A stretch of 64,000 bases of DNA, taken from positions 1-64,000 of the forward strand of contig QCFH01000003.1 in assembly GCA_003278345.1 (NCBI GenBank), read 5' to 3'. Origin of the DNA: Prochlorococcus sp. AG-363-C02. GTDB taxonomy: Bacteria; Cyanobacteriota; Cyanobacteriia; PCC-6307; Cyanobiaceae. Below the pieces are notes generated by a model. The model had not been told where the DNA came from. It did no database searches and saw only the letters and a program-made list of their open reading frames with translations. The position numbers were made by a program, and so were the translations under genes. Position 1 is the first letter of the stretch. Every line of letters starts with the position of its first letter. Shown here piece by piece: positions 4,577 to 24,996 of this stretch.

Positions 4577-4733
4577 CGTAAAATAGATATGTCGCAGTCG
4601 CAGAACTTGTTGGTTCTCACTCGGCATTAAAGCATTTCTACAAACTAATGAACACACTTAAATGTGTGGCAGCATTTTGCATGTCTTTGCGTGAAGGATC
4701 GCTCATTATTGCAAGGGTTTTTGAGGAAGTTGG

Positions 4734-7278: not shown

Positions 7279-7500
7279 AAGGGCCTTTCTAGAGCTTCCC
7301 ATGAGGGTCGTCCGAAGGCTCGAAAAAATTCAGACTGGTTCTCCCTAAGCACTAGGTCGCTGGGGGGTAGCTGAGTGATTAGAACCCCTTGCAAATATGT
7401 TCTAATTTTCTGCAATATTGAGTCTCAAGTCGATTTATATGACTTCTCTTAGCCCTTTGATAGCAAGCCTTTTGATGATTCTCATCTTTAACCACCTCGT

Positions 7501-7546
7501 CTTTTGGGAGCACTAGGTCGCAGGTTTGAATCCTGTCGCCCCGACT
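7501..7546 (+). repeat. tRNA-Pro(UGG)-like 3' half (best preserved scar)
   Basis: cTTTTGGGAGCACTAGGTCGCAGGTTTGAATCCTGTCGCCCCGACTAG: anticodon loop, T-arm and acceptor 3' side; no 5' half. Confidence 0.75.
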
Positions 7547-7667
7547 AGTTTTTTGGATTCTCACAATAAGAACGGGCGATCATTGGGCGATCCCTAGCAT
7601 ATGTTTGCATGTCTTTGCGTGAAGGATCGCTCGTTATTGCAAGGGTTTTTGAGGAAGTTGGCTAAAC

Positions 7668-7812
7668 CATCCACAATGGTTCACTTCTCTCCCAACCCTC
7701 CTCAATTAATTGCCGCCATATCTCAATAGCTTCTTGCATAGGAATATTCTGGCCTTCACGAATTACTGCATACGGTGTTATCTCATGCAAAAAGCGATGC
7801 TCGCATGAATTT
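7668..7812 (-). pseudogene. Truncated DUF1651 copy
   Basis: 7608-7812 is near-identical to 4680-4880 and lacks the N-terminal half. Confidence 0.7.
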
Positions 7813-8164
7813 GAAAGAATCATTTTTAATCTACTAATTCATTCTTTGAATTCTTAAAAGCTAAAATTTGAAATTTCTGAATATGATTTGGTTCGGTTTT
7901 TGCAGCTCTATTTTAATTGAGATTAGTTAGCATCAGCGTCTAATTCGGAAACTAAACATGGATGCTCCGGCAGTGCATATTAATTTGTTCAACGCGATAA
8001 TTGCGCTGTACGTGATTGGTTACCAAATAACTATTTGCTCTGATTGGAGTTGGATACCGATGAATAACGAGGATTACACATTGCCTTATAAAAACAAATG
8101 GTCCAAGGCCCTGCCGACTGATTAGAGGGGTTAGAACTAAAAGAATTAATCTTAGTTAGAGAAA

Positions 8165-8368
8165 TCATTCCATGATCATCCCACATAAAACGGGGTTTTT
8201 TATGCACTCATTTTCACTAGGGCCATGCTTTTTTATGACAGATTCTTGTGAAACTACAGAGTGATTAACAGCTTCTAAAGGACCTCCTTCACCATGAGGA
8301 AGAGGATGCGCTACAGCAATATTTGGTAATGCGATTGCAGCGAGGAGTGGAAGTAATAAACGTTTCAT
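8165..8368 (-). CDS. Small secreted protein
   Basis: MKRLLLPLLAAIALPNIAVAHPLPHGEGG...; signal peptide. Confidence 0.65.
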   Translation of the reverse strand: MKRLLLPLLAAIALPNIAVAHPLPHGEGGPLEAVNHSVVSQESVIKKHGPSENECIKNPVLCGMIME

Positions 8369-8602
8369 TTATTTAGAGTTTATACATTCCATTTTTGATC
8401 TTCTTGCTCCTCTTTGCGGGTGAGGCCAAAAGCGATCACTACTCTTTAACTTCTTGATAGCCTTCTCACGAGCCTCTTCGCTTTCCATTGGCACTACAGC
8501 TAGTCTCTCCGCAAATGTATGAATAATTAAATAGTATTCAGCAGCACTAACAGCCGTAGGTAAAGCAAAAGCAGCAAGTAAGGGAAGTAGTAAGTTTTTT
8601 AT
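8369..8602 (-). CDS. Small secreted protein, intact 77-codon frame with ATA at the expected start
   Basis: (ATA)KNLLLPLLAAFALPTAVSAAEYYLIIHTFAERLAVVPMESEEAREKAIKKLKSSDRFWPHPQRGARRSKMECINSK*; TGA just upstream; stop abuts ATG of 8165-8368. The equivalent position in the 5209 paralog is ATG. Confidence 0.5.
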   Translation of the reverse strand: MKNLLLPLLAAFALPTAVSAAEYYLIIHTFAERLAVVPMESEEAREKAIKKLKSSDRFWPHPQRGARRSKMECINSK

Positions 8603-8888
8603 TTCTCAAAACTAGAAGTTTTTCTTAGGTTATTAATCCATTTGGAAAGAACGTCATTCTTCTTTTGACTTTTTAATAAAGGTTTGATGATATTGGTGTT
8701 CTTTTTTCTTGGATATTCCTCTTCTTGGCATCGGTCTTCAGTCAGATTCAATATCTATAACCTCAGGAGGTTTGCCACCTTCAAGACTTTCTGTTGCTGT
8801 TCTGATTTTGTTTTTCATATCAATTCCTCGTCTTATCACTTGCATGAAATCAATATAAAGATAATGAGTTTCTCACTTCCCCCAGACA

Positions 8889-9317
8889 ATGCTCACAGAA
8901 ACGATTCAAGTTAAATCAACTTCCTCTTTTAGTTGCCATCCTATTAGTGAGAGCATACAAAGTTTCTTGGATACATCCCAACAACTAGAAGGTGTAGTTT
9001 GTGCTTTTAGTCAACATTCAACCGTTGGGATGATAGTTAATGAAATGGAAGAAAGGCTGATATTGGATCTAGGGAAATGGTTGGAAGAGATGGCCCCAAC
9101 AGCTCAAGGATATAAACATGATGATTTACATCTTAGAGAGAACATCCCAGAGGATGAACCAAAGAATGCTCACTCACATCTAAGAGCTTTGCTTTTAGGA
9201 AATCATGTAAGTGTTCCTTTTAAAAATGGAAAGCTCCAACTAGGTAAATACCAAGAGATAATTATGGTTGAACTAGATGGTCCTAGGGAAAGAAACATCG
9301 TAATTAGTATTCAGTAG
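8889..9317 (+). CDS. UPF0047/YjbQ family protein
   Basis: ORF 142 aa; FSQHSTVGMIVNE...HDDLHLRENIPEDEPKNAHSHLRALLLG...VELDGPRERNIVI. Confidence 0.9.
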   Translation: MLTETIQVKSTSSFSCHPISESIQSFLDTSQQLEGVVCAFSQHSTVGMIVNEMEERLILDLGKWLEEMAPTAQGYKHDDLHLRENIPEDEPKNAHSHLRALLLGNHVSVPFKNGKLQLGKYQEIIMVELDGPRERNIVISIQ

Positions 9318-9402
9318 GGATAAAAGGCTCCTGATCTAGCTCAAGTCTTCATACTGCCTTGATTTAGAGCAACTGCATGTAAAGCACTCGCCGATTAAAA
9401 AT

Positions 9403-9543
9403 TTAATGAATGATCAATTTTTCTAGTACTAGAGCTATGAATACCCCTTTGAAAAAGACAAGCCAAAGTAATCCATAATCACTAAGGCCTAGCTTCTTTT
9501 GATACCAAGCAATTAGCTGCTTGTGCTTTTCTATAAGTTTCAT
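9403..9543 (-). CDS. Small membrane protein (46 aa)
   Basis: MKLIEKHKQLIAWYQKKLGLSDYGLLWLVFFKGVFIALVLEKLIIH*. Confidence 0.5.
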   Translation of the reverse strand: MKLIEKHKQLIAWYQKKLGLSDYGLLWLVFFKGVFIALVLEKLIIH

Positions 9544-9812
9544 TTTTTCTTTGACTTGTTGTAATTAAATTTAGTAGAAGCTCTGTTGCCTTGCCAAGAA
9601 AGAGTGCCTTGATACTGGTCCTCATTTAGTAAGTAACGGAGTGCGTCATCTGAAGGTGCTTCAGCTATTTCCTCTTGGGGCATTAGCTCAATCTCCTCTG
9701 CTTGAACTGCAATAGGACAGCAAAACAAAAGTAGACCAAGAACAAAAGTAAAGAGTTTTTTCATTGTTTTTCTGAGAGTTTCTATTAAATGAGAAAAATT
9801 ATGTTTTTTCAA
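9540..9812 (-). CDS. Small secreted protein (start may be the internal Met MKKLFTF)
   Basis: MKKLFTFVLGLLLFCCPIAVQAEEIELMPQEE... signal peptide. Confidence 0.65.
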   Translation of the reverse strand: MKKHNFSHLIETLRKTMKKLFTFVLGLLLFCCPIAVQAEEIELMPQEEIAEAPSDDALRYLLNEDQYQGTLSWQGNRASTKFNYNKSKKK

Positions 9813-10146
9813 TTGGTGCCATTGTTAATCCTTTGCTAATCAGTTGCTGATGATATAACTCTGCCTGTTCAAGTGGGCCTCTCCATACTTCCGCCGAACC
9901 TTGCCTATCTACTTCGACGGCAAGTAGCCATGATCTTTCTTCACTCATTCCTGGGATGATTGTCACGAGACAATTTGCTACATGTTCAAACGTATTAAAA
10001 TTATCATCCAGAACTATTATCCTTGCTTCAGGATATTTCTTTTTTGTTGTCTTTGGATCTAAGACTGTAGTAGTTGAATTAGCTGTAAATTTCATAGCTG
10101 TTGTTGCTACAAAATCTTTTACTAAGTTGGTTAAGTCAAGAGTCAT
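9799..10146 (-). CDS. ClpS-like Clp protease adaptor
   Basis: ARIIVLDDNFNTFEHVANCLVTIIPGMSEERSWLLAVEVDRQGSAEVWRGPLEQAELYHQQLISKGLTMAPIE. Confidence 0.8.
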   Translation of the reverse strand: MTLDLTNLVKDFVATTAMKFTANSTTTVLDPKTTKKKYPEARIIVLDDNFNTFEHVANCLVTIIPGMSEERSWLLAVEVDRQGSAEVWRGPLEQAELYHQQLISKGLTMAPIEKT

Positions 10147-10329
10147 ACCTTCATTATGGCTCTCATTCCTATTGGAAAAGTTATCCTAAGAAATCAATAC
10201 CAGAAATCAAAGACGAAATGAACCAATTACGGGAAATGGTTTATGCAGCGCAGGGCGTCAGGGATTGATATAGGAGGGAATAAATGATGAAGACTATAGC
10301 TAGATCAGATCTTTAGTTAGTACAGACGG

Positions 10330-10449
10330 CTATGAATCCTTCTTCTTGAAAAACTTTTGGAACATCCACACTAAATAAATAGTTGAGCCTATAAACAAAA
10401 TCAAGCTAAATGTTCCAACTGCTGAATTTGCTGCTTCTACTGTTGGCAT
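10330..10449 (-). CDS. Small membrane protein (39 aa)
   Basis: MPTVEAANSAVGTFSLILFIGSTIYLVWMFQKFFKKKDS*. Confidence 0.65.
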   Translation of the reverse strand: MPTVEAANSAVGTFSLILFIGSTIYLVWMFQKFFKKKDS

Positions 10450-10513
10450 TTCATCCTTTTTCTAATTACACAAAACATACTTTAAGTGGCTGAGCTAGTT
10501 CAAGTTTTCATAC

Positions 10514-10970
10514 TGCTATGAATCCTTCTTCTTAAAAAAAATTTGGAACATCCAAACCAAGTAAATGGTTGAACCAACTAGGAATAACATCTGGAATAGT
10601 GGTCCCGTAAGTCCGTCAAAGCAAATGGTCTGCAGTGGTCCATCAAAGAAAAAGGTTCGCCAAATACCTTATTTGGGCCCACAAAACCAAGAATTAATTC
10701 CTTACCATCAAAAGTTGCCGCTCGTAATTTAATTAGTCCTTTAACAACAATCCAGATTTTCCCTTTGAGCCAAGGAATAGAATTTCCTTTGGAAATATGA
10801 ACACTATTTTTTCTAGAAGAACTCGTTTCCAAAAATTTTGACAATCCGTCCATAACATTTGTTGAAACCGTGCAATTAGCTACAAGCAAGTTTGACTTAA
10901 TCAAGCTTCGGCTATTTACAAGTGATGTAGATCTGCTAGAACGACTAGATGAAACGATTATTAATTTCAC
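10514..10970 (-). pseudogene. CRP-like CNB fragment joined to a second copy of the small membrane gene
   Basis: ORF 10578-10970 has a CRP-like core (LKGKIWIVVKGLIKLRAATFDGKELILGFVGPNKVFGEPFSL), no HTH, and loses similarity at ~10640. From there another frame reads GLTGPLFQMLFLVGSTIYLVWMFQIFFKKKDS*, a paralog of 10330-10449. Confidence 0.6.
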
Positions 10971-11197
10971 TGATCGCTGTTATTGCATTTCCTGCCGCGG
11001 CTAATGCTGAAACTGTTTGGTTAGTTCTTAGGTATTCAACAGGTCTTAAACAGAGTGGCGTTGGCGCAGCCCTTGAAAAAATACCAATGAATAGCTTGCA
11101 AAACTGCGAAATGATGGGTGCTCAATGGATGGGGAGCAGACCAAGCAGAGGAGAAAAAGGTCCTGTCTTTGGCTTCAACTGCCTTAAAGGTAAATAA
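10949..11197 (+). CDS. Small secreted protein
   Basis: MKRLLISLIAVIAFPAAANAETVWLVLRYSTG...; stop abuts ATG of the next gene. Confidence 0.75.
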   Translation: MKRLLISLIAVIAFPAAANAETVWLVLRYSTGLKQSGVGAALEKIPMNSLQNCEMMGAQWMGSRPSRGEKGPVFGFNCLKGK

Positions 11198-11806
11198 ATG
11201 AAAAAGTCTTTACTAATGGCTCTAATAGCAGCCTCTTCTATTGCACCTATACCTACAAAGGCAGACTTAGGTGATGCTGATTTTCCTATTGGAAAATTTA
11301 ATAATGCACCTCAGAGTTATCACGATGCTTGGTGCCGCAAACTTAAAAACGAATGTCGAGTTCGTATACAAGGACAAAATTTATGGGTTGAAGGTCAAGG
11401 AGGCATTAAGAGATCTCAATTCCTAAACTATAGATATGACTGGGATGGAGAAGAATTCTATAACTACATCACTTATAAAGATAAAAAAGGACAGAAAAGA
11501 GACGCATTATTTCTTTTTGTGCATCCAAGGGCTCAAGCAGAATTCATTCGAGCTTTTTTTAGGTGGAAAGATCAAGTTGAAGAGCCATATCCTAACTTCC
11601 GCTTACCTGCAAGCCAAGGTCCACAAGAAACGCATGGAAGGGATAAGAGCAATCTAGTTCCAATGAACCCTTACGACAATCCACCAATTACTGATTGGTC
11701 AAAAAGAACAACCCATATGACTGATGCTTGCGAAAGAGGTGTTTTGAATGCAAAAGATAAAAGGTGCCAAAAGTTAGCAGATTGGTCCCCATCCATCGAG
11801 CAATAG
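11198..11806 (+). CDS. Secreted hypothetical protein (202 aa)
   Basis: Signal peptide MKKSLLMALIAASSIAPIPTKA; long intact ORF. Confidence 0.8.
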   Translation: MKKSLLMALIAASSIAPIPTKADLGDADFPIGKFNNAPQSYHDAWCRKLKNECRVRIQGQNLWVEGQGGIKRSQFLNYRYDWDGEEFYNYITYKDKKGQKRDALFLFVHPRAQAEFIRAFFRWKDQVEEPYPNFRLPASQGPQETHGRDKSNLVPMNPYDNPPITDWSKRTTHMTDACERGVLNAKDKRCQKLADWSPSIEQ

Positions 11807-11918
11807 ATTTAACTAAAACTCATTTAAGCTTAAGAGGGCAGGACTAATTCCTGAGGGTAATAATCTAGGGATAGAATGCCCTAAATGCTTTAATGCCGCT
11901 GTAGTCGGAATGTAAATG

Positions 11919-11979
11919 CTGGCGAAGACTAAACCAATTGAAGGTTGGTTAGTTAAACCTGATCGAGTAGATGGATAAG
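11919..11979 (+). pseudogene. DUF1651 N-terminal fragment
   Basis: MLAKTKPIEGWLVKPDRVDG* matches GWLVKPDRVW of 4734-4976. Confidence 0.5.
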
Positions 11980-12232
11980 CCTGCAATACATACTTACAAA
12001 GAAAAGAAAGCTGGAAAAGTCTTAAAAAAATGATAAAGAAACTCAGGGAATGAATATTGTTGCTTACAGATTTAGGCATTCTTATTCTCTTAGAGCCTAC
12101 GTTTTAGGGATTGATTCTGGATCGGTTTCATGAGTATGGGGCACACGCTAGAGGCTCACCACAGATCTTATCCCTACGCTTAAAAGCTAGTACCACCAAA
12201 GCTTTTAAACTTGCTAGAGAGAGGGTTGCATC

Positions 12233-12424
12233 ATGACTACTAACAAAAGATATGTTCAATTATTGTTTATGTCTCAAACATGCCAGCCACTTGAAAAGGC
12301 TGCTAGTGCAGAGGACAAAAAGATATATAAGGAAATGAAGCACGCTGATAAGGTTATGAGAAAGTCAGCCAAGAAACTTGGTATTAAAAATCCAATACTA
12401 GAAATTCCTTTAGAGTTAGATTAA
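12233..12424 (+). CDS. Small hypothetical protein
   Basis: ORF 63 aa, Lys-rich, ...AGAGAGGG... upstream. Confidence 0.6.
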   Translation: MTTNKRYVQLLFMSQTCQPLEKAASAEDKKIYKEMKHADKVMRKSAKKLGIKNPILEIPLELD

Positions 12425-12627
12425 TGCAATATTTACTTGATTGACAGCTGATCTATACTGAGGTCCAATTAGCTCCTTTTTTTTTTTGTGAAAAGTTATC
12501 TTATATCGATGAATACAGAATCAAAACTAATCTTTTGGCAATTTCTCCTAATCATGAAATAAAGGTTTTTCAGCAAAAATATCCGAAAGCAGAAGATATT
12601 TATGTTATTCAGAATTTATTAAAAAAA

Positions 12628-14283
12628 ATGAAACGCTTACTAGTTCTATTTTTGTTCTTGGGTTTAGGCTCACCTGTTAAAGCTTTTGGAGGAACTACAG
12701 AACAAGAAAAGAATACTTGTAGATATAGGGCTTCAGGAGAAAGAACTGAATTTAGTGCTAACCAAACATATGAAAATTGCCTAAAAAATTTAAAGGAGCA
12801 AAACAAAAATAAGTTAGCAGAAGAAAAAATTCATATAAAAAAAGCAACTTGGCGCAATCGTACCTTGCGGTTTTCCTTTGAGGAAATTGATATGCCAGAT
12901 GCGGGCGAACATATGGGTTTGTACGGTATAGGGGCTTACGATCGACTCAACCCTTGGCTGTACGGCGGTATCACTGCTTACGGTGCCGCGACCGGACGCC
13001 GTGGCGGGTTCTTTACTGGTGGCTATACCTTGGGCGTGGAACGTCAGTTAATCGAAAACTGGATTCTCGATGCCGGAGGCTATGTGGGTGCCGGGGGTGG
13101 CGGTGTCGCGGCGCAAGGAGGAGGGTTAATGATTCGCCCCCATATCGGTCTCAAGCACGACTTTAGATGGGGCGCACTGGGCCTGAATTATACCTACGTA
13201 GATTTCCCCAACGGAGATATTTCCAGCGATGCAATCGCGCTTTCACTGGATATTCCCTTCAGTTCACCGACACACAATTGGGAAGATGATGAGCTGACTG
13301 CGGCCGATTACTTCGGAGCCGACTTGAGCAATGTGAGCCGCCATCGATCGCACTTAGCCGCCCGCGTTCGCTCCTATTCTCCGGCCAGCGGCAGCAAAAA
13401 CACCTCCGGTGGGTCGCTTGATGATTCATTTGGGCTGGTCGGCGTAGAGTACTCTTACTTTCTTGATGACAACTGGTTTACCACTTTTGAGACTGCCGGT
13501 GCCGTATCAGGTGGTGTAGGCGGATATGCCGAACTTTTAGCCGGGTTAGGTTATCGCCTCCCCTTAACCCAAAACGATCGTCTGGCCCTACTCCCCGCCC
13601 TAACTATCGGCGGTGCCGGTGGCGGGCGGGTCGAAACCGGCGGAGGATTTGTTGTCCGAGCAAATCTAGGATCGGAATACCGACTTTCTCCTCATCTCAG
13701 TCTAATTATGGACGGCGGCTATCTCACCGCCCCAGATGGCAATTTTGACACCCCATATGTCGGCTTCAATTTGGCATACGTAATGGAAACCTTTGCTCAG
13801 GATCAAAAAGGAGCTCCCTTAACGGAAACAGACCTTATACAAACTACTAAATGGCGCTTTCGCCCGGCGCACCAATGGTATTTTGATGCGCAACGCAGGG
13901 AAATCCCTTCACGCGATATGCAACTTATGGGAGGTAAAATCGACTGGATGGGAGGAGATTGGTGGTACCTTACAGGACAAGGATTAAGCGCGTATGCAGG
14001 AGGAGCCGGTGGCTATTCAGAGGGACACTGGGGGGCAGGTGTTTTTAGCCCGAGCTGGAAGAACTGGCAACTCTATGGCGAAATGCTCATAGGTGCCGGA
14101 GGGGGAGGAGGCGTTGATAGTGGTAGCGCATTATTGTACAAGCCGAGTGTCGGGTTAGAGTACAATCTAAATAAGGACTTCAGCCTTCAAACTGGTATAG
14201 GAAAAGTGATTTCTAGAAATGGAAATCTGGATGCCAATACCTTGGACGCTAGTCTGGTTTGGCGTTTTGGAACCTCAAAATAA
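12628..14283 (+). CDS. Outer-membrane beta-barrel-like protein, GC-rich body on AT-rich N-terminus
   Basis: Signal peptide MKRLLVLFLFLGLGSPVKAFGG; three Gly-rich repeats each with alternating aromatic/Gly strands; GC rises sharply after ~12,850. Confidence 0.75.
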   Translation: MKRLLVLFLFLGLGSPVKAFGGTTEQEKNTCRYRASGERTEFSANQTYENCLKNLKEQNKNKLAEEKIHIKKATWRNRTLRFSFEEIDMPDAGEHMGLYGIGAYDRLNPWLYGGITAYGAATGRRGGFFTGGYTLGVERQLIENWILDAGGYVGAGGGGVAAQGGGLMIRPHIGLKHDFRWGALGLNYTYVDFPNGDISSDAIALSLDIPFSSPTHNWEDDELTAADYFGADLSNVSRHRSHLAARVRSYSPASGSKNTSGGSLDDSFGLVGVEYSYFLDDNWFTTFETAGAVSGGVGGYAELLAGLGYRLPLTQNDRLALLPALTIGGAGGGRVETGGGFVVRANLGSEYRLSPHLSLIMDGGYLTAPDGNFDTPYVGFNLAYVMETFAQDQKGAPLTETDLIQTTKWRFRPAHQWYFDAQRREIPSRDMQLMGGKIDWMGGDWWYLTGQGLSAYAGGAGGYSEGHWGAGVFSPSWKNWQLYGEMLIGAGGGGGVDSGSALLYKPSVGLEYNLNKDFSLQTGIGKVISRNGNLDANTLDASLVWRFGTSK

Positions 14284-15040
14284 AGACCCCAACCTTGGAT
14301 ATGGGATATATCAATCAACGTCGTGATAAACAAATATGTCCTGCTATGGCTCGTTATCTACAGTCAATGGGCTGGCAAAAAACGACTAAGCATCAAAGGT
14401 ATACCCTACCTAATGGCTCAAGAACAGATAAGACTAGTGGTTGGATTAGGCCAAGAAAACATGCCCAAGATAATGCCTAGTAGATGCCTATTGAGATTAT
14501 TGAAGGTTTAGGGTATTGAATACTTAGGAAAAGATATAAGGGATATAGCTATAAACAAAGGCCATAACTTGTCTACGAAATGATGCCCCAATGCCCTAAA
14601 TGATAAGTTATTTGCTTTTGGAATCACTTTCAAAGAGTCAGAACGATATATAAATGTCAGCTCAAAAATCAATTGAATCTCTAATGAAAATACTTCATCT
14701 TAAGAACTCTATCTCTGCCATTTCTCTTGTTGCAATAAGTTCTTATGCATTGCTAACACCAAGTGCAAAAGCACATATATTCAACAGATCAATTTTTATG
14801 CAGGAAGTACTACCTCAATGTTGTATTAGTAGGAGGGGTCAGTATTTGAACCTTCACCTAAGTCCTTATTTTGATAGTGCAACATTCCTGGCTCTGAATC
14901 CTCCACTGCTTTAATTAACAACATGTGTTCAACAAATCAAATCAGTTATTGAATATTGCTGGAAAAGATTGAATTGAAATTAAGTAATATGTAGGTTTTT
15001 TTACCTAATTACAAAAGTCTCGAGAAGCATTAGAAAGGAA

Positions 15041-15099
15041 GTACGACACTCCTCACACAATTGTCGTTAGGCGCTACTCGTTGAGGGCGCCTTTTTTGT
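15041..15099 (+). ncRNA. yfr1-like: Yfr1-like sRNA
   Basis: ACTCCTCACAC (15048-15058) sits in the loop of ACGAC...GTCGT, followed by AGGCGCtactcgttgagGGCGCCTTTTTT terminator. Confidence 0.65.
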
Positions 15100-15164
15100 G
15101 CTTAATTTTCTTTAATCCTATAACTGGCATATGTGACAGTTATAGAAGCTTTCTCCTGTCTCTA

Positions 15165-15285
15165 GCACTAATAGAACCTGTATGACATATTGAATTCGTG
15201 AGGAGATGGGATTCTCCAGCAGTGGAAACAAGGAAACACTTGCAGAAGATCCCCAAAGATACCTGCCTACGGGCAGGTTTTTTTG
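15165..15285 (+). ncRNA. yfr2-like: Yfr2-family-like sRNA
   Basis: AGTGGAAACAAGGAAACACTT loop motif; GTGAGGAG complementary to the Yfr1-like motif; ACCTGCCtacGGGCAGGTTTTTTT terminator (15261-15284). Confidence 0.65.
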
Positions 15286-15317
15286 TACCTTTGATTCCTA
15301 TCAAATTTTTATTGCAA

Positions 15318-15671
15318 TCAACCTAATAATTGCCTCAACATTTGTACTAATTCTTTTTTGGTGAAACTTTCTAGTGCTCTTGGTGGTGGTTTAACTCCAT
15401 GTTTCTTGAGAAGAGCAACAAGTCCAGCTTTCTTTAAACTCGAAAAACCTTTGATTCCATTTGATCTACATAAATTGATTAGTGTTTTGTTTGTTTGTTT
15501 CCAACTTCCTTCTCCAAGTAAAGCTTGTATTTTTTGATTTGGTGAAAATTGCGGAACGCTGATGTCTTGGGTCGCTGCTTTTAGTTCAGCATCCATCTCT
15601 CTCAGACTTCTTGCATCTGATTGAGCAATCTCTTTTAAATTTGCACGCAGGGAATCAGCTATTCGTCCCAT
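15318..15671 (-). CDS. Conserved hypothetical protein (117 aa), operon with 15655-16137
   Basis: Helical ORF; overlaps the upstream gene by 17 nt. Confidence 0.7.
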   Translation of the reverse strand: MGRIADSLRANLKEIAQSDARSLREMDAELKAATQDISVPQFSPNQKIQALLGEGSWKQTNKTLINLCRSNGIKGFSSLKKAGLVALLKKHGVKPPPRALESFTKKELVQMLRQLLG

Positions 15672-16137
15672 CGCCTTCTTCTAGTTTCCTATTAATTGAT
15701 TCTTTCTTCTTGATAAGTACTTCAAGTTTCTCTTTAGAACGAGTCCAACGATTGATGAAGTTAATAACAGCCTTAATCAGTCGACCAATAAATGAACCTC
15801 CAGTATAAGTTTTTCTTCCTTTTACATATGCTTGATATTCAAAGACAAGCTCGTCTCCAGCATCTTCAAGCTCACCAATAACACCAGTCACAATATCAAG
15901 CATTTCATAAGCCTCTTGACGAACAGAAGCCTCACGTTGAGCTATAACTCTAAGTTTTTCTTCCAGAGCCTTCATTGCTTCTCGACTCTTTTCTGCTTGA
16001 CCTCGAAAAGCACCACGGCTCCTCATCAGGCTTGAATAATTCTTCCTAATTTCGAGATAGGAATCCTCTAAGGTTTGTCGATCAAGATTGAAAACATCTG
16101 CCGGGAATGCAGTTGTAGCAGGAATTGTTTTTACCAT
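15655..16137 (-). CDS. Coiled-coil hypothetical protein (160 aa)
   Basis: ORF with heptad-like charged composition. Confidence 0.75.
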   Translation of the reverse strand: MVKTIPATTAFPADVFNLDRQTLEDSYLEIRKNYSSLMRSRGAFRGQAEKSREAMKALEEKLRVIAQREASVRQEAYEMLDIVTGVIGELEDAGDELVFEYQAYVKGRKTYTGGSFIGRLIKAVINFINRWTRSKEKLEVLIKKKESINRKLEEGDGTNS

Positions 16138-16238
16138 AAAAAGAATTTAACTGACTCTTTGGATTAATTTGCACCTTAAAAACTTTTTCTCATGATTATT
16201 TAAATGTAGGGTTTAACTAGATGAGCTAGAAAGGGGAT

Positions 16239-16655
16239 ATGAAACGCTTACTATTTGCCTGTCTTACGGCAATAACATTTTTCTTTGCCCCTGTCGCGAC
16301 ATTTGCATCAGCTGCAGATTTATCACCTGCTGTGTCAGATGTAAGTAAGAATTTCTCAGAGAAGTTCTGTACGTCTATTGGGAATGGACTTACTCCCGAA
16401 GAAGCTGGAGAGAGTGCTGCTGCTCAATTATCAAAAGGCTTATTGTTCTCTCCTGTTATGAAAGAAATAATGTCTGCTCCGAAAGCAGATTTAGCTGCAT
16501 CTTTATCCAATAATATTTTTGAAGGATGTGGGAATGACCTTGGAGGTACAAAAGAAGAACTTGATGATTATCTGTTTCAACTATCAAATAAAGTTCCAAG
16601 TAGATCCTCTGGCGGTTTGCAGCTTCCCCCGACTCGACAGAAACTATCTAAATAA
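16239..16655 (+). CDS. Secreted hypothetical protein (138 aa)
   Basis: Signal peptide MKRLLFACLTAITFFFAPVATFASA; AGAAAGGGG upstream. Confidence 0.75.
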   Translation: MKRLLFACLTAITFFFAPVATFASAADLSPAVSDVSKNFSEKFCTSIGNGLTPEEAGESAAAQLSKGLLFSPVMKEIMSAPKADLAASLSNNIFEGCGNDLGGTKEELDDYLFQLSNKVPSRSSGGLQLPPTRQKLSK

Positions 16656-16708
16656 ATCTTATTACTAGCAGATGAAAGGTTATTCTTATTAAGATATTCT
16701 CCAGCATT

Positions 16709-17350
16709 TTATTCTCTTATATTAATAATATCTTCGTTGCTGTTTGCGTAAAATTTAAATCTATTCTCTTTTCCATACCATATTGCTTTTTTGGGATTAA
16801 TAGTAGAGACCTTTCTTAATTTTGGACTGCTACCATTATATTCATAATCTTTAATTCCATTAAATACCATTGTATTACTTTCTAAATCATATGAAGCATT
16901 GTTAGAATAAAATGATGCTCCTTTAATAATTGATTTAACACCCCCAGACATGTATATTGATGAATCTTTTTCTTCCCAAACTACTTTTTTGGATTCGATT
17001 CTAAAATGTTTGCTATTAATAGATTCCATATATACATTATTCTCTAAAATTATTTTATTCCCATCATCTAAAATTGAAGCTACTTTTGATATAATTTTGT
17101 AATAGGGCTTATTATTATAATGTATTATTAATAGAGGCTCTATTGCATTCATTGACTTAGTACTTTCAATAATATAGGCACGTTCTGTTACAAGCTGAAA
17201 TTGTTTATTCCCATTTAAATCAACTTGGTCTAAATTTATATTTATAAACCTAAGAGCAGGATCCTTTTCAACAGTTTTTTTGCACCCTGCTAATAAAAGT
17301 AAAGTTAAGAAAAAGATTAAATTTAATTTTCTATTAATTAAATTCTTCAT
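16709..17350 (-). CDS. LptC-like lipoprotein
   Basis: Lipobox LLLLAGCKK; ...RAYIIESTKSMNAIEPLLIIHYNNKP...IILENNVYMESINSKHFRIESKKVVWEEKDSSIYMSGGVK. Confidence 0.75.
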   Translation of the reverse strand: MKNLINRKLNLIFFLTLLLLAGCKKTVEKDPALRFININLDQVDLNGNKQFQLVTERAYIIESTKSMNAIEPLLIIHYNNKPYYKIISKVASILDDGNKIILENNVYMESINSKHFRIESKKVVWEEKDSSIYMSGGVKSIIKGASFYSNNASYDLESNTMVFNGIKDYEYNGSSPKLRKVSTINPKKAIWYGKENRFKFYANSNEDIINIRE

Positions 17351-17631
17351 TAATTTATTTTATTAAAATTTAAGTTGGCCTTTAGATAGTGATTCAAGCT
17401 TAAGTTTAAACCATATCAAGATTTTCTCAATTAAGTACGATTATTAATATGGAATTGTTCACAATTTGAATAACCAAAATATTTGGTAAGTATTAAAGTT
17501 GACAATTTCGTAAATAATCTGCAACTTTCCAAAACAACTTATAAAAACAAAGATGCTCTGTTAATTAATATTTTAAGTGTGTTGTAGTAAATACAATCAA
17601 AATTATTTTTCTTGAAATTTCTCAGAATTGA

Positions 17632-17678
17632 TTTGGGAGCACTAGGTAGCAGGTTTAAATCCTCTCGCTCCGAATAGG
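17632..17678 (+). repeat. tRNA-Pro-like 3' half
   Basis: ATTTGGGAGCACTAGGTAGCAGGTTTAAATCCTCTCGCTCCGAATAG aligns with 7501-7546. Confidence 0.7.
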
Positions 17679-17755
17679 TGTTGAAGGATTGGGTTTTTGG
17701 TTTGTATCCTAGGAAGGCTTAAAAATATACTATTTCTATTTGATGGATTGTCATC

Positions 17756-17930
17756 ATACTAAAAGAAGGTCGAAAAGCGCTCGACGATAGTAAGAAGCAA
17801 TAAAAAAGAAAACGCTTAAGCAAGATCTCAATTATTCAGAATACTTTTGGCTGATAATAATCTTTTTATTATTTAATGGAGCTTTTATTTACTTGGCAAT
17901 GACTTCTCCTAGTTCAGATGCAAACATGCA
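17756..17930 (+). pseudogene. Decayed duplicate of 6073-6240
   Basis: aaagaaggtcgaaaagcgctcgacgatagtaagaagcaa... vs aaagaaggtagaaaagcagtcgacgagagtaagaagcaa...; continues through acttctcctagttcagatgcaa. Confidence 0.65.
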
Positions 17931-17965
17931 AATATTTTCATAGATTCAACCCATCCACATTAAGT

Positions 17966-18012
17966 GCTTTCGTAGCACCAAGTTGCAGGCTCGAATACGG
18001 TTGAATCGACTT
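17966..18012 (+). repeat. Degenerate tRNA 3' half-like sequence
   Basis: GCTTTCGTAGCACCAAGTTGCAGGCTCGAATACGGTTGAATCGAC; weaker match. Confidence 0.45.
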
Positions 18013-18126
18013 TTAAGGAATAGGCCTTTAGGGTTGAACCCAAAATTTAACTAAGATCAATGCAAATAAATAGTTTTAACGGAATGCTAAAAAAGTCCTT
18101 AGGATGGTTGTACTTCTAAATTCACA

Positions 18127-18270
18127 GTGAAAAAATTTCTTCCTTTGGTATTGGCCCTTTCTATAGGTGCGGCTCCTGTTCTTGCTTGGGGAGAAGGAGA
18201 TTGCCCTTTTTCTAAAGATAAGTCAAACCAAGAGACTAAAACTGAGCAAGTGGAAGAATCAGATAAGTAA
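18127..18270 (+). CDS. Small secreted protein (47 aa, GTG start)
   Basis: VKKFLPLVLALSIGAAPVLAWGEGDCPFSKDKSNQETKTEQVEESDK*. Confidence 0.6.
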   Translation: MKKFLPLVLALSIGAAPVLAWGEGDCPFSKDKSNQETKTEQVEESDK

Positions 18271-18528
18271 GTCTTGGAAACAAAAGAAGGCTGGTTAGTT
18301 AAATCTGATCGAATTTGGGTATTGAGGTTTTTTAATGATCCTCATAACAAATTAAAGTCACATGTCTATATACAAAAAGCATCATGCTATATCTTTTCTC
18401 TCATGGGATTACCCAACAGGTTGTAATACGTGAATGTCAAAACCTACCAAGGCATGAAGCTATAGATTTTTAGAATCAATTAATAAAAGAAGGTTGGGAA
18501 AGAAGTGAACCTTTATGGATGTGTTAAA
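18271..18528 (+). pseudogene. DUF1651 pseudogene (frameshift and internal stop)
   Basis: EGWLVKSDRIWVLRFFNDPHNKLKSHVYIQKASC / SHGITQQVVIRECQNLPRHEAIDF*NQLIKEGWERSEPLWMC*. Confidence 0.75.
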
Positions 18529-18928
18529 TCAGCTAAAAGGTTATATGTAATGCTTCCAACTACTTCAATAAAGTCAAATTATGCCTATCGATAAACCTAT
18601 TCTTGATGCTGTTATTCGCTTCTGGTAAAACCTCTATATAGACGTTAAGGTGAAATTTAATAATCTTAAAATTAAAAAACTTGGCGCGTAAGCGTTAATC
18701 TCCTAGAAAATAGAAGAGTAATGTATATTGTTCTTTAAGGTTCTTGCATTAATAATTTTTTTTATCGACCAACTCGCAAGCGAAAATAATTACCTCTTCC
18801 TTATAGGAATCTTTGCTGAATTTTATTAGGTTAATATAAATACTTTTGTCAGAAGAACCTGAAAAGATGGCTTGCAATACAGAAATTTTAAGAGATATAT
18901 GTAATCTTCATTTGTTATTCAAATTTTC

Positions 18929-19210
18929 TTGATGGCACTTGAAACTACTGTATTTACTTTCAAAATTTCTGTTCCTTTTGCAGAATGGGCTAAAGGTTTT
19001 GATAGCCCAGAAGCAGAGCAAATGCACAAGGCAAAAGGAATAACACCTTTATATAGAGGTGTTAGCAAGGATGATCCTGAATCAGTAGTAGTAATCCATC
19101 AGGGAGAAGAAGGTGCAGCTTTAAAAATGTTTGAAGGAGCAAGACCCATAGCTGAAGCTAGTGGTCATATATGGGAATCAACTGTTATTACAAGTTACCT
19201 TCCAGGTTAA
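18929..19210 (+). CDS. DUF3764-like protein
   Basis: ETTVFTFKISVPFAEWAKGFDSPEAEQMHKAKGITPLYRGVSKDDPESVVVIHQGEEGAALKMFE. Confidence 0.8.
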   Translation: MMALETTVFTFKISVPFAEWAKGFDSPEAEQMHKAKGITPLYRGVSKDDPESVVVIHQGEEGAALKMFEGARPIAEASGHIWESTVITSYLPG

Positions 19211-19342
19211 TAGAAAGATAAAAACTAGTTTTATCTCTTTGCGACTGATACTAAGCTCTCCAGATTTACGTACCCTTTTTTGTAGGGTTTATTACCTTCT
19301 AAGTTCTTCTTTTCTTAGCGTCTAGAAAGAGTTTTATTGCCA

Positions 19343-19435
19343 ATGGAAGAATTAACCAAAAGAGTGGAAGAGCTTGAGAAGAAAGTCCAGCATTTAGAAG
19401 TAGTGCTGAGATGCCAAGCAAGTAAAAGCAAATAA
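19343..19435 (+). CDS. Micro-ORF, coiled coil (30 aa)
   Basis: MEELTKRVEELEKKVQHLEVVLRCQASKSK*. Confidence 0.45.
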   Translation: MEELTKRVEELEKKVQHLEVVLRCQASKSK

Positions 19436-19450
19436 GTTCATTATTCATTT

Positions 19451-19678
19451 CTATACACTGCAATCTTCATCTTTAGGTAATTGGAGCCATCCGCATGTCC
19501 ATTTTGAATGCGTTTTTAGCTCATTCCACGAAACTCGAATAAGAATTTCTTTTTTGATTACGGGGGAAAGCTCAACCCACCTTTGATCTTTTTTGCCTCC
19601 ATATTGCCTGACTTCAAAATGTCGATAGCCATCTCTTTTGAACGCTGATGTCCAAGCTTGATTAGGAGGCCATCTCAT
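19451..19678 (-). CDS. TIGR02450-like small Trp-rich protein
   Basis: MRWPPNQAWTSAFKRDGYRHFEVRQYGGKKDQRWVELSPV...SWNELKTHSKWTCGWLQL. Confidence 0.8.
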   Translation of the reverse strand: MRWPPNQAWTSAFKRDGYRHFEVRQYGGKKDQRWVELSPVIKKEILIRVSWNELKTHSKWTCGWLQLPKDEDCSV

Positions 19679-19896
19679 GGTTTTTGTTCTTTATTCTTAT
19701 GGGATAGAAACATTTGTTTTTTTTTCGAAATAAATATTTTAGTCATTTTGCCACTAAAAGCAAAGTAACCTATCGCTCCTAAAAACAAAGTAAAAGCAAT
19801 CAAGTTTGGCACTATCCCTCCAATGATTTGCGCTTCCCCAAAACCTAGAAAAGTTATCACTACAAATATCCTTGCCCAGTTATCAGCAAAGTACAT
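19675..19896 (-). CDS. Small membrane protein
   Basis: ORF 73 aa with two TM segments; overlaps 19451-19678 by 4 nt. Confidence 0.65.
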   Translation of the reverse strand: MYFADNWARIFVVITFLGFGEAQIIGGIVPNLIAFTLFLGAIGYFAFSGKMTKIFISKKKQMFLSHKNKEQKP

Positions 19897-20109
19897 TTAG
19901 CCAACCCCTGGGATCTGAAAAGGAAGCTTATCTCCTAGTGCCAATAAGGATTTCTGTACAGTTGGTATACGTAATAGGGCTAAAGGGAGAACAATGTTCA
20001 ATACTATCCAAGCTCCACCAATGATTGGCGCCCATTTGCCAAACTTTTTGAGAAAGCCCGTTTGTTCTTTTTCTTTTGCCATTGAGTTCTTTGGTCTTAA
20101 TCTGTTCAA
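19897..20109 (-). CDS. Small membrane protein, paralog of 49788-49961
   Basis: KFGKWAPIIGGAWIVLNIVLPLALLRIPTVQKSLLALGDKLPFQIPGVG*. Confidence 0.75.
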   Translation of the reverse strand: MNRLRPKNSMAKEKEQTGFLKKFGKWAPIIGGAWIVLNIVLPLALLRIPTVQKSLLALGDKLPFQIPGVG

Positions 20110-20130
20110 TTTAGATTTAATCTTTAAATA

Positions 20131-21118
20131 TTATTCCCCAATCATCTGAATAGCGTCACGAGACTTAGTAAGGATATCTCCTTTTAATGGAAGAAAGCCT
20201 AAGGTAGATGCTTTGCTTTGAGCCTTGTCGCTTAGTAGGTAGTTAAGAGTTTCCTTGATAGCTACCGTGTTTTTACCATTGCCTGTTTTGTAAGCAAGGA
20301 TCCAAGTTAGAGTTGCTATTGGATAAGCTCCTTTAGCTGAAGGATTTGGATTGTTGCCAGCTAGGTTTTGATCTAATTGAATGTTATTAAGAGCTTTGCC
20401 ACCAGCTTCTTCTGAAGGCTTAAGGAATTCACCAGAAAGATTTTGTAAGGCAGCTGCTTGAATTACTCCTTGAATATATGACTGGTTTACATAGCCAATT
20501 GTCCCTGGAGTGTTTCGAATTAATCCTGCAACGCCAGCATTCCCTTTGCCACCAATACCAGCAGGCCAATTAACTGACTTCCCTGTGCCTAGGTTCCAAG
20601 TCTCTGAGAAAGCTTGCATTGAGTTTGTAAAAGCTTTCGTTGTACCAGAACCGTCAGAGCGGTGTGCCCAGGTTAGTTTGCCTTCAGGGCATCCAAGCTC
20701 ACTCCAGTTTTTAATTTTCCCCATGGCAACACGAACTGCTTGCTCTTGAGTGAGCTTAAGGTCGCAATCGTAGTTGTAGCCAAAGGCAATAGTACCGCCG
20801 ACTATTGGTATTTGAATAAGACCACGGGTTACTTTCGCAATATCCTTTGCTTTCATTGGATCATCAGAGGCGCCGAAGTTCACTGTTTCGTCGATGAAGG
20901 CTTTGCGCCCAGAACCAGAACCAACTGCTTGATAGTTGACTCTAGCCCCCCCCCTCTTTGGAAAGATCAGAGAACCAACGAGTGTAGATCTTTGCGGGGA
21001 AAGTAGCGCCTGCGCCACTAAGACGTACATTGGAATTGTTGGATGAACCGCAGGCTGAGATGCCAGCACCCATTGCAACTGCAGCGGAGAGAAGAAGCGC
21101 CTTCTTTACGAAGGTCAT
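20131..21118 (-). pseudogene. pstS: PstS phosphate-binding protein, interrupted at a G9 tract
   Basis: MTFVKKALLLSAAVAMGAGISACGSS...SGAGATFPAKIYTRWFSDLSKEGG then frameshift at 20946-20954; the other frame continues RVNYQAVGSGSGRKAFIDETVNFGASDDPM... Eight Gs would restore ...KEGGARVNYQAVG.... Confidence 0.9.
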
Positions 21119-21210
21119 GTTAAATCCAAAGTGATCTAGATTATAGCTTTTCAGATAACCTTGAATTAACAATATTACTTGATGGATGTGTGTTGATTGA
21201 AGGGTTAGTT

Positions 21211-21256
21211 TCTTTGGGAGCAGCAGGTATAAGGTTTAAATCTTCTGTCCAGATTG
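21211..21256 (+). repeat. tRNA-Pro-like 3' half (degenerate)
   Basis: CTTTGGGAGCAGCAGGTATAAGGTTTAAATCTTCTGTCCAGATTGG. Confidence 0.55.
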
Positions 21257-21475
21257 GCTTCTTAAGTTATTTGTCAGTAAAAATTGGTGCTGTTGCGATT
21301 ACCCCTATCTAAACAATGATTTATTTTTTGCCTCAACTCACTCCTTTGAGAAAAAAGAGTTGGCATTAGGAGAAACCTTTTAGACCAATCGGCCAAAACT
21401 TATAAGGAATATTATCTTACTTGCCATGTCTAAGAAGAATAGATATATATATATAGGAAACTGAATTCTTTAATA

Positions 21476-21832
21476 ATGTTCATGTTGATTGCAGTATTTT
21501 TCTCTCTATTCTTTATTGGTATATTTGGATGGACGATTACAACTTACTTAGTTAAAGAAGATTCTCAGAACTCCATTAAAGAAGAAATTACTAACTTGGT
21601 TGATATTTGTAAGATGTTTTTCGTATCGCTAAAGAGCTTGGTAGGAGTTTTAGTAAAGCATTCTTTCTCTTCTAATTCAGTTGAGTCAACTTCTGCTGTA
21701 TCAAAAGGAATAGATGAACAGCTATTAAAAATGGTTCAGCCAGTTGAAGAAGTTGAAGAGGATACAGCTCTTTCTTCTTTCAGTCCAGAATTGATTGAAG
21801 TGATTACTGAAGAAGAAGAAAAAGTTGCTTAA
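21476..21832 (+). CDS. Membrane-anchored acidic protein (118 aa)
   Basis: N-terminal TM; acidic C-terminus. Confidence 0.7.
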   Translation: MFMLIAVFFSLFFIGIFGWTITTYLVKEDSQNSIKEEITNLVDICKMFFVSLKSLVGVLVKHSFSSNSVESTSAVSKGIDEQLLKMVQPVEEVEEDTALSSFSPELIEVITEEEEKVA

Positions 21833-22216
21833 TTTAGTTACAGTGCTCCTATTAGGGTGGCTAATGCTAAATATGGAAGCAGATTCTCTAGAGGTATAAG
21901 GTTTTAGCCTATATTTTAACTGGTGGGAAAAATATGGCGACCTTGTTTCCTTCAACCACAAGGCAGCTAGGGTTGCTATAGAGTGCTAAGTGGCAGAAAT
22001 CCCTTGTATACTTGGCAATTATTGGCAATTTTGAGGTTAAAAGCTATTGGAATTACGTTCAAAGACTCTTTGTTTTAAATTCTTTTCTTAGAGTTTTATT
22101 GCCTCAAATTTCTTTGGGATAGATGTTTTGTTAGTAGAGCCTGAAGAGATAGCTTGTGAAATAGAAAATCTGTGGAAAATATGTAATGCTCTCAGCAGTC
22201 TGAAATTTCTTATTTA

Positions 22217-22633
22217 ATGTCTGACAAAGATACAATTCTTTCAATACTTGAGGCATTTGCATCATCAGAGCGGATGGGCTCATTCTTCATTGACAACTCA
22301 ACTTCTGATTTCTTATTTGTGAGACCAAGCGGGAACCCAATAGATGCAAAAGGTTTTGAAGAGATGTGGTCTTCAGGTGACCTTGTTTTAGAAAGTGCTG
22401 AGATTACCAAGATTCATAGGTTTGATTTGTTTTGTGAGGATGCTGCTATGTGTGTGTTTACGCTTGGTTCAAAATTCACCTATAAAGGAACTCCGAATGA
22501 TGATTTGCCAATAGTAACCGCTATATTCAAAAGAATTCATGGGACATGGAAAATAGCTTGGATGCAAAGATCCTCTGGTCAAGCAGATATGTCTTTATGG
22601 GGGAAATTTAGTTTAGGTACTGCTATAACCTGA
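22217..22633 (+). CDS. SnoaL/NTF2-like protein (138 aa)
   Basis: GFEEMWSSGDLVLESAEITKIHRFDLFCEDAAMCVFTLGSKFTYKGTPNDDLPIVTAIFKRIHGTWKIAWMQRSSG. Confidence 0.75.
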   Translation: MSDKDTILSILEAFASSERMGSFFIDNSTSDFLFVRPSGNPIDAKGFEEMWSSGDLVLESAEITKIHRFDLFCEDAAMCVFTLGSKFTYKGTPNDDLPIVTAIFKRIHGTWKIAWMQRSSGQADMSLWGKFSLGTAIT

Positions 22634-22639
22634 TTAGGT

Positions 22640-22688
22640 GATTTGTTAGCACTAGATAGCAGGTTTGAGTCTTATCGTGCTAATCATT
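22640..22688 (+). repeat. tRNA-Pro-like 3' half (degenerate)
   Basis: ATTTGTTAGCACTAGATAGCAGGTTTGAGTCTTATCGTGCTAATCATTGG. Confidence 0.55.
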
Positions 22689-23137: not shown

Positions 23138-24040
23138 TTATCTCTTTTCTAGAGAATTTTTACCAATAAATCTTGAAATTATATTCATAGTTAATAGTAT
23201 TAAAACTAACAAGAAGGAAGCTGCCCAGGCTAATTTATTTTGAGCTTCATATGGCTCTAGAGCGAAGTTATAAATTAATACTGACAAAGAACCCATTTCA
23301 TAAAACAAATCTCCAATCCCAGTTATGTAATATCTGGAGAAAAGAGCAGTAAATATTAATGGAGCTGTCTCACCTGCTGCTCTTGCGATACTTAACATAA
23401 TACCTGTTGTTATTGGTCTAAAGGCAGCAGGTAGAGTAACTCTTGAAATTGTCGTAAACATTGAAGCTCCAATAGCTAATGAACCTCTTCTAAGATCATC
23501 TGGAACTAATTTTAATCCTTCGTCTGTAGTCTTTATAACTGTAGGTAGCATTAAAATAGATAATGCCATCCCTCCAGCAATTCCACTAAACATACTTCCA
23601 AATAAGACTTTGGTTGAAACAATTATTGCGTAAATAAAAACACCTGCAATTATCGATGGAACACCAGCCAGCACATTAGTTCCAAACCTTATAAATTTTG
23701 AAAAAGGTCCTTCTTTTGAATATTCGGCCAGATAAATACCTCCCCCTATACCAACTGGAATTGATATTAAAGAAGATATAGTCGTTATTATAAAAGTACC
23801 TACAATTGCAGGACCTACTCCACCAGCAGATAAAAGATCATCCCCTGGGGGTTCAGGTTCAAGTAATAATGTATCCAAATTAATCTCAGCCCCTCCTTTA
23901 ATTACTACAAAAGTAACAACTAATATAAGAGGTAAAATTGATATTATGGAAAATAAACCTGATAAAATAGTAAATGTAGTTTCCTTTATGTTTCTTCTAG
24001 ACCTTGGATTGTATTCAAGAGATTTTTTTATATTTTTCAT
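23138..24040 (-). CDS. pstA: Phosphate ABC transporter permease PstA
   Basis: IKTTDEGLKLVPDDLRRGSLAIGASMFTTISRVTLPAAFRPITTGIMLSIARAAGETAPLIFTALFS. Confidence 0.95.
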   Translation of the reverse strand: MKNIKKSLEYNPRSRRNIKETTFTILSGLFSIISILPLILVVTFVVIKGGAEINLDTLLLEPEPPGDDLLSAGGVGPAIVGTFIITTISSLISIPVGIGGGIYLAEYSKEGPFSKFIRFGTNVLAGVPSIIAGVFIYAIIVSTKVLFGSMFSGIAGGMALSILMLPTVIKTTDEGLKLVPDDLRRGSLAIGASMFTTISRVTLPAAFRPITTGIMLSIARAAGETAPLIFTALFSRYYITGIGDLFYEMGSLSVLIYNFALEPYEAQNKLAWAASFLLVLILLTMNIISRFIGKNSLEKR

Positions 24041-24042
24041 TT

Positions 24043-24996
24043 TTAAGAATATTTAAGACTTAATTTTTTAACTATCCATTGAGCAAGTAAATTTACTATT
24101 AATGTTAATAGCATTAAGACAAATGCTGCATACATTAATGAAGAAACTTGACTACCATCTGCTTCACCAAATTGATTTGCAAGCATTGCTGAGATTGTAT
24201 AGCCAGGTGAGAATATTGACCAGCTAAAACTATTAGAATTACCAATAATCATTGTTACTGCCATTGTTTCTCCCATTGCTCTACCAAGGCCAAGTAAAAC
24301 GCCTCCTGTTATTCCAGATATTGCAGCTGGAAGAATTACATTAAAGATAGAAGTCCACCTTGAAGCTCCAATTCCATAGGCAGCTTCTCTTAATTTGTTT
24401 GGCACCTGATTAATTGAATCCCGCGCAATTGAAGTGACAATAGGAAGGATCATTACGACTAAAATTAATATTGCGGGTGCTATTCCAGGCCCAATTGGTT
24501 CAGAGCTTAGAAATGGTATCCAGCCAAAAAAATTATATAGAAAAAGTAAAAATGGTCTTATAAATGGCTCCATAACAAAAATTGCCCATAGACCAAGAAC
24601 TACCGAGGGAATTGCCGCTAAAAGCTCTACCATGAAACCGATTAAACCTCTAACTTTGGCAGGGAGAATATCTTCTGTTATGAAAATAGCTGTACCAACT
24701 CCAAGAGGTATTGAGATAATTACAGCAGCTAATGATGTTATTAACGTTCCATAAATAGCTGTAAAAGCTCCATATTCGTCAGTTACAGGATTCCACTCTG
24801 AGGTTGTAAGAAAATCAATTCCATATCTATTCATTGAATCTAATGACTCATAAAAAATGACAAAAAATATTGCAAGGAGCAAAATTGAGAGACTGGAAGC
24901 CATTAAGAGCGCGAAAATCTTAAAGCCTTTATCAACTAATTTTTCAGTTAAGGATCTTTTTTTTAGAAAGAAATTATTTCTCTTTTGAGATATCAC
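24043..24996 (-). CDS. pstC: Phosphate ABC transporter permease PstC
   Basis: FLTTSEWNPVTDEYGAFTAIYGTLITSLAAVIISIPLGVGTAIF...LREAAYGIGASRWTSIFNVILPAAISGITGGVLLGLGRAMGETMAVTMIIGN. Confidence 0.95.
   Translation of the reverse strand: MISQKRNNFFLKKRSLTEKLVDKGFKIFALLMASSLSILLLAIFFVIFYESLDSMNRYGIDFLTTSEWNPVTDEYGAFTAIYGTLITSLAAVIISIPLGVGTAIFITEDILPAKVRGLIGFMVELLAAIPSVVLGLWAIFVMEPFIRPFLLFLYNFFGWIPFLSSEPIGPGIAPAILILVVMILPIVTSIARDSINQVPNKLREAAYGIGASRWTSIFNVILPAAISGITGGVLLGLGRAMGETMAVTMIIGNSNSFSWSIFSPGYTISAMLANQFGEADGSQVSSLMYAAFVLMLLTLIVNLLAQWIVKKLSLKYS

Follow-up and report, generated by a model that had tools for sequence, protein, structure and literature searches.

In 2006, Coleman et al. reportedly described a repeated 48-bp tRNA-proline piece in Prochlorococcus islands. 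tRNA-targeted islands and tycheposons are already known, as are pseudo-tRNAs in Prochlorococcus (PMC2784084), arrays of RNA-gene repeats (PMC3146451) and additive islands with tRNA repeats (PMC10872708). The tycheposons of Prochlorococcus, as cited in PMC10872708 and PMC10654061, are tRNA-targeted, carry a tyrosine recombinase and nutrient cargo, and remodel islands. Here, we analyzed positions 1-64,000 of contig QCFH01000003.1 (C3) from Prochlorococcus sp. AG-363-C02, a draft genome of 1.42 Mb that is 77% complete; this 64,000-nucleotide stretch is called the window, and G-numbers denote the genomes of relatives. We conclude that the window is very probably the distal, old part of an island that was built by repeated insertion of tyrosine-recombinase elements at one tRNA-Pro(UGG).

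Compared with tycheposons, an element on a second contig of the same genome (C11) fits, whereas the window keeps just scars and relics. Furthermore, PMC10872708 quotes a range of 4-200 kb, while many of the inter-scar segments in relatives measure 0.2-4.5 kb, lie mostly below this range and lack an integrase. In Prochlorococcus MIT9313, five partial copies of tRNA-Met lie beside the intact tRNA in a hypervariable island, at a putative P-SS2 site (PMC2784084). This arrangement is similar in combining partial tRNA copies next to an intact tRNA with a match to a phage attachment site, but it concerns tRNA-Met in one genome, and the pertinent portion of PMC2784084 does not describe repeat pairs or integrase-less segments. 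The ssrA-specific islands of Dehalococcoides, 16 of 31 of which carry an integration module, likewise consist of elements in tandem that lie downstream of a single RNA gene and are delimited by direct repeats of its 3' end (PMC3146451). They differ in using a CcrB-like serine recombinase, 20-bp repeats and a module at the left end (PMC3146451); the recombinase described here is a tyrosine recombinase. Tandem accretion with attachment-site-flanked elements that have no recombinase (cis-mobilizable elements, CIMEs), and the additive islands that contain repeats of a tRNA-Lys 3' end (PMC10872708), resemble the present case in repeated insertion at one tRNA and in flanked segments without integrase. 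Such segments are generally regarded as remnants, whereas many small segments here keep matched terminal pairs. A T7-like cyanophage has its phage attachment site (attP) at tRNA-Leu, and its integration was shown experimentally although no stable lysogens were found (PMC8776855); the combination of a tRNA piece as attP with a phage integrase resembles the layout proposed below, with tRNA-Leu there and tRNA-Pro here. The likeness to integrons, which are defined by intI and attC hairpins, is limited to being an array of small segments: the core here is a tRNA-Pro half and the integrase belongs to another family.

tRNA-Pro halves in the window and the intact tRNA on C11

The first-pass annotation, made from the letters of the window, had proposed five co-oriented tRNA-Pro 3' halves without 5' halves. 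Each candidate place was aligned without gaps to the 46-bp 3' half of tRNA-Pro(UGG) from this genome, with the tRNA as sole query, and its identities were compared with those in 60 first-order Markov shuffles of the window on both strands (maximum 26/46). Covariance-model E-values are circular for the window because model R1 was built from the scars, so the identity of the scars rests on the tRNA-only scores.

7501-7548 (+): scar 1, anticodon loop to acceptor end of the tRNA-Pro(UGG) 3' half; 43/46, blastn 97.8% over 46 bp to C11:28992-29037
17629-17678 (+): scar 2, tRNA-Pro 3' half; 39/46
17964-18012 (+): scar 3, tRNA-Pro 3' half, decayed further than scar 2; 34/46
21210-21257 (+): scar 4, tRNA-Pro 3' half, heavily decayed, marginal by score alone; 28/46
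22638-22686 (+): scar 5, outermost tRNA-Pro 3' half, ahead of pstA-pstC; 31/46

All five align to the 3' half over its full length and in register, with scores above the shuffle maximum, and none of the genome's other tRNAs matches these places better. ARAGORN detected no tRNA in the window, and no scar has a 5' half, which bears out the proposal. The best non-scar positions of the window reach 27/46, so scar 4 is marginal by score; it is, however, backed by its register, strand and position, and G005 has a decayed tRNA-Pro half about 70 bp past the 5' end of the orthologous pstS, the place that scar 4 takes relative to pstS in the window.

The intact tRNA-Pro(UGG) lies outside the window, at C11:28960-29034. 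Its 3' half is repeated 18.9 kb downstream as a perfect 52-bp copy that extends from the anticodon arm to the acceptor end and a few flanking bases, which amounts to integration at the tRNA with duplication of the 3' end, as in tycheposons. On its left, the 18.9-kb element encodes a putative primase (weak Prim-Pol match) and an AAA_25 ATPase, and it also encodes a protein with weak HNH-endonuclease matches, a methyltransferase and a porin-like protein. Its phosphate/arsenate cargo comprises pstS, the porin-like gene, a CRP-type regulator, arsJ with its partner gap gene, and arsR. At the right end, adjoining the attachment copy, the element carries its own tyrosine recombinase, a 415-aa protein whose family shows conserved R, H and Y positions and matches, as a profile, a XerC-like recombinase of known structure (E 1e-5); 5 of 10 family members match Pfam Phage_integrase, weakly. 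In every element that has a full integrase, the gene sits at the right end on the minus strand. Against this usual layout, an integrase lies directly 5' of the intact tRNA-Pro at G005:C5:17115-18230 and at G013:C1:7200-8315.

A PHROG scan of ten proteins from the C11 element and its neighborhood returned no structural match of the kind that would mark a prophage. The 7.6-kb cargo at C11:38404-45955 is 99% identical to a stretch of G005, while the UPF0061 protein of the island flank is only 78% identical between the same genomes, which points to recent horizontal movement of the cargo. The newest layer of the island is an intact 18.9-kb tycheposon-like element on C11.

Layering of the island in relatives

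Besides the scars, two features of the window bear on its layering.

11949-12224 (+): C-terminal remnant of a C11-family tyrosine recombinase, broken by frameshifts; tblastn 33% over 102 aa, E 2e-6, profile matches in three frames
18013-18535 (+): block found in G005 on the right side of a well-preserved tRNA-Pro half; about 88% identity along 525 bp, beginning at scar 3

The recombinase remnant contradicts the earlier statement that no integrase is left in the window. It is the sole recombinase trace there, and no tycheposon hallmark gene was found in the window segments, so that none of them combines an intact recombinase with hallmark genes as a tycheposon would.

To compare synteny, we used 55 attachment sites from 13 genomes and left the alignments unmasked at the scars, since masking makes artificial ends. 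Of the alignments touching these sites, 118 stop there and 2 run through, whereas at random places 45% stop on average. Syntenic blocks thus break at the scars, and the outcome that the first-pass annotation had named as fatal to its proposal did not occur. A single contig of G005 carries, in addition to the intact tRNA-Pro, four scars and a pstS, followed by the UPF0061 gene, which in the window is found right of the scars. On it, the counterpart of the block right of scar 3 begins after a well-preserved tRNA-Pro half about 170 bp from the intact tRNA, and only these ~170 bp of element end separate tRNA and block. The block right of scar 3 probably once abutted the tRNA. By this reading, the insertion ahead of it took place long ago in this genome, and in G005 it is young or small.

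Graded decay, which the earlier note had read from the five fragments, holds in the window and, when 16 arrays are taken together, scar preservation falls with order from the tRNA (permutation p = 2e-4), although not strictly by position. Layered arrays with integrases adjoining the scars also occur in relatives. The proposal of serial insertions at one tRNA-Pro is therefore supported by the occupied site on C11, the arrays of relatives, the alignment stops and the G005 block, with the qualification that many insertions in relatives are small integrase-less segments and not whole tycheposons. In G004, C1:10001-50000 contains an island that is inverted together with its tRNA-Pro relative to the left-flank genes, and G002:C1:562000-602000 has scars in both orientations.

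In the mechanism that we propose, the recombinase would join the tRNA 3' half borne by the element to the chromosomal tRNA, with a crossover presumably within the anticodon loop (TTTGGGA). The incoming 3' half would restore the tRNA, and the old half would be displaced outward with everything behind it. Once displaced, a half would be free to decay, so that scars farther away should be older on average. In this model, the scars of the window delimit older layers, in which the integrases and the cargo (pstS, ptrA-like) are undergoing decay.

Repeat pairs, small segments and phage half-sites

Segments between consecutive attachment sites were surveyed in about 28 genomes. Inside each end of the well-preserved segments we found paired direct repeats of 7-14 bp, 11 or 12 bp apart. 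For counting, a pair was defined as identical repeats of at least 7 bp at this spacing, located at most 120 bp from the left or 220 bp from the right end, and 63 segments of at least 400 bp with both sites well preserved were included. A left-end pair is present in 52 of the 63 segments (3.6% of random windows) and a right-end pair in 51 (7.2% of random windows). The left-end pairs fall into distance classes of 23-29, 47-53 and 65-75 bp, and the right-end pairs lie mostly at 105-124 and 142-152 bp. The two ends of a segment bear matching motifs, which differ from one segment to another: left and right motif share a 7-mer in 38/63, as compared to a mean of 1.9 and a maximum of 7 when right ends are permuted among segments. 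The motif of the C11 element, GCCAACAAAT, occurs four times in the 53-kb contig, one pair per element end. Two integrases that are 95% identical share the motif CGGGATCTC, and more distant integrases are mostly associated with other motifs. G161:C11:8845-11472 and G184:C2:30850-33476 represent one segment (90% over 98% of the length) in which the motifs differ, having changed together at both ends.

Judging by their position, their spacing of about one helical turn, their agreement within an element and the layout in phages, the repeat pairs are most likely arm-type sites of the integrase. The integrase would read the paired end repeats to choose which element moves, and we infer that integrase-less segments carrying such sites may have been moved in trans. 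Among 65 well-preserved segments of relatives, 49 have attachment sites at both ends and no recombinase, as in CIMEs (median 1.9 kb), and 16 have a full integrase (median 11.4 kb). Many of the integrase-less segments hold one or a few unrelated genes, and 36/49 keep matching ends by a relaxed criterion. Alternatively, such segments may be remnants of deletions that spared both ends. Whole segments recur nearly end to end between genomes (G009/G011 97%, G088/G093 99%, G161/G184 90%), which suggests that they are mobile units, although any one pair may simply share ancestry. 7-mers shared between integrase-bearing and integrase-less segments include chance low-complexity matches and were not counted as proof.

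A 42-bp tRNA-Pro half is present in 20 IMG/VR contigs, 18 of which lack the tRNA 5' half. In 14 of these 18 phage contigs, the same repeat motif flanks the single half-site on both sides (strict criterion; 8 motif types), and in most of them a C11-family integrase lies beside the half-site. Three phage contigs were examined further: two have tail genes, one of these together with a terminase large subunit and the other with a sigma factor. As judged from these sequences, tailed phages probably also use tRNA-Pro half-sites as attachment sites. A single half-site flanked by matched pairs is the layout expected of an unintegrated attP and hence gives independent support to the arm-site reading. 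The phage motifs were also detected in two integrase-less cellular segments (G010:C20:12090-13529 and G014:C18:21722-23623). In the literature examined, which did not extend to the original tycheposon description, we came across neither element-specific matched end pairs nor integrase-less segments matched to phages. Tentatively, and with slightly less than even likelihood, the tRNA-Pro islands may be arrays of small cassettes (mostly 0.6-3 kb) that share the same tRNA half, bear their own repeat-pair address and are moved in trans by tycheposon or tailed-phage integrases reading the same address, with the window as a fossil stretch of such an array.

The phage contigs raise the question whether the scars are mostly relics of prophage integration by tailed phages rather than of tycheposons. 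Their attachment core, same-family integrase and matched pairs, and the two integrase-less segments with their motifs, speak for this, but the C11 element has metabolic cargo and no recognized phage structural gene among its scanned proteins, and ten tested proteins of the window had no PHROG match; we consider a predominantly prophage origin unlikely. It is more improbable still that the fragments arose not through separate insertions but from a single scar that was copied along with its flanks, by homologous recombination or by duplication: duplicated blocks inside the window (4676-4881 and 7604-7809, 93% identical) and the inverted islands of G002 and G004 speak for this, but the duplications exclude the scars, the flanks of different window scars are unrelated, and preserved scars in relatives are abutted by element ends with matched pairs and integrases. 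Retention of the halves because they serve, for example, as transcription terminators or as a small RNA, to which their genus-wide recurrence in mostly one orientation might point, is hardly credible, given that they decay in order from the tRNA, as expected upon released constraint, and that their surroundings suggest no gene.

Several observations nevertheless weigh against reading the window as the old part of a serially built island. No repeat pairs were detectable at the older scars of the window, a loss that decay predicts, and in none of the large arrays is the decay of the scars strictly monotonic. The assembly does not join C11 and C3, whose order was deduced from relatives and shared contig-end sequence. 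Compared with the integrases of intact elements, the integrase relic of the window and that at C11:50237 lie on the other strand, implying that parts of the island were inverted or rearranged; inverted parts are also seen in G002 and G004. To link the contigs, C3 was searched for GTGTGCAA, the motif of the repeats on the right side of the C11 attachment copy, without a match. C3:4059-4317 is 95% identical to C11:52725-52984, a hint that the right end of C11 neighbors the left end of the window.

Contents of the window and meaning of the layers

The following features lie between and beside the scars.

7302-7500 (+): right end of the element left of scar 1, with one copy of motif GGGTAGCTG; 80-85% to scar-adjoining sequences in G016, G028 and G005
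7347-7360 (+): conserved part of this element end, recurring in about eight other genomes
7574-7592 (+): two copies of the paired repeat GGGCGATC, spaced 11 bp apart and located 25 bp to the right of scar 1; they form the pair at the left end of the next older element
10611-10847 (-): fragment of a PtrA/CRP-like regulator gene; 66% over 79 aa to the intact regulator of the C11 element
20131-21118 (-): older pstS copy just inside scar 4, frameshifted at a homopolymer; 83% nucleotide identity to pstS of the C11 element
21476-22633 (+): small-gene block between scars 4 and 5, with a 118-aa open reading frame (ORF) and a DUF3804 protein

In additional genomes, weaker copies of the 7302-7500 end adjoin scars, and their orientation is always the same. 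The motif of this end, GGGTAGCTG, present once in the window, occurs as two copies 12 bp apart in G016. An invertible segment at this module, considered because of an inverted anticodon-loop spacer, was dropped since all scar-adjoining copies face one way. The partial tRNA copy that had been placed at 7339-7350 corresponds to a conserved sequence at 7347-7360; its Smith-Waterman score of 13.5 equals the shuffle maximum and it is not a sixth scar. In the other genomes it recurs where the same ~200-bp element end starts, and it thus belongs to that end. The GGGCGATC motif is found at both ends of G178:6371-9579, an integrase-less segment of 3.2 kb, and G125:1057391 has it at its left end.

The pstS of the window has its orthologue beside a decayed scar in G005. 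Differences by codon position (39/18/115) are dominated by the third position, and with this bias the gene is not an old pseudogene; the frameshift, at a homopolymer in a draft assembly, may be a sequencing error. The pair pstA and pstC (23138-24996, minus strand) lies directly behind the outermost scar without pstB after it, and G002 has the pair on the other side of the tRNA. A homologue of the 118-aa ORF (79%) sits between two decayed scars in G002, and G170:22915-24480, an integrase-less segment of 1.6 kb, contains a DUF3804 homologue (67%).

A Cyano-1 RNA was detected at 15192-15257 (+); its surroundings (15005-15292) have related copies in the C11 element (C11:29550-29831 and C11:40535-40644), and this RNA may travel with these elements. 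A Glutamine-II riboswitch at 51103-51165 (-) scores at the gathering threshold. Three copies or fragments of a DUF1651 gene occur in the island, at 4734-4976 (-), 7662-7823 (-) and 18274-18426 (+). Small precursor-like genes with similarity to CCRG-2/double-glycine leaders are located at 3867-4466 (-) of the window and at C11:48835-52464.

From the scars, the acquisition of genes can be put into a relative time order in a genus that ranks among the most abundant photosynthetic ones, and the phosphate gene pstS appears in several layers at one tRNA. If the repeat pairs are address sites of the integrase, they show which segments belong together and which integrase or phage could move them. This would explain the mobility of small integrase-less gene blocks in genomes without obvious conjugation or stable prophages, and the long-standing question of how Prochlorococcus islands exchange genes would become directly testable.

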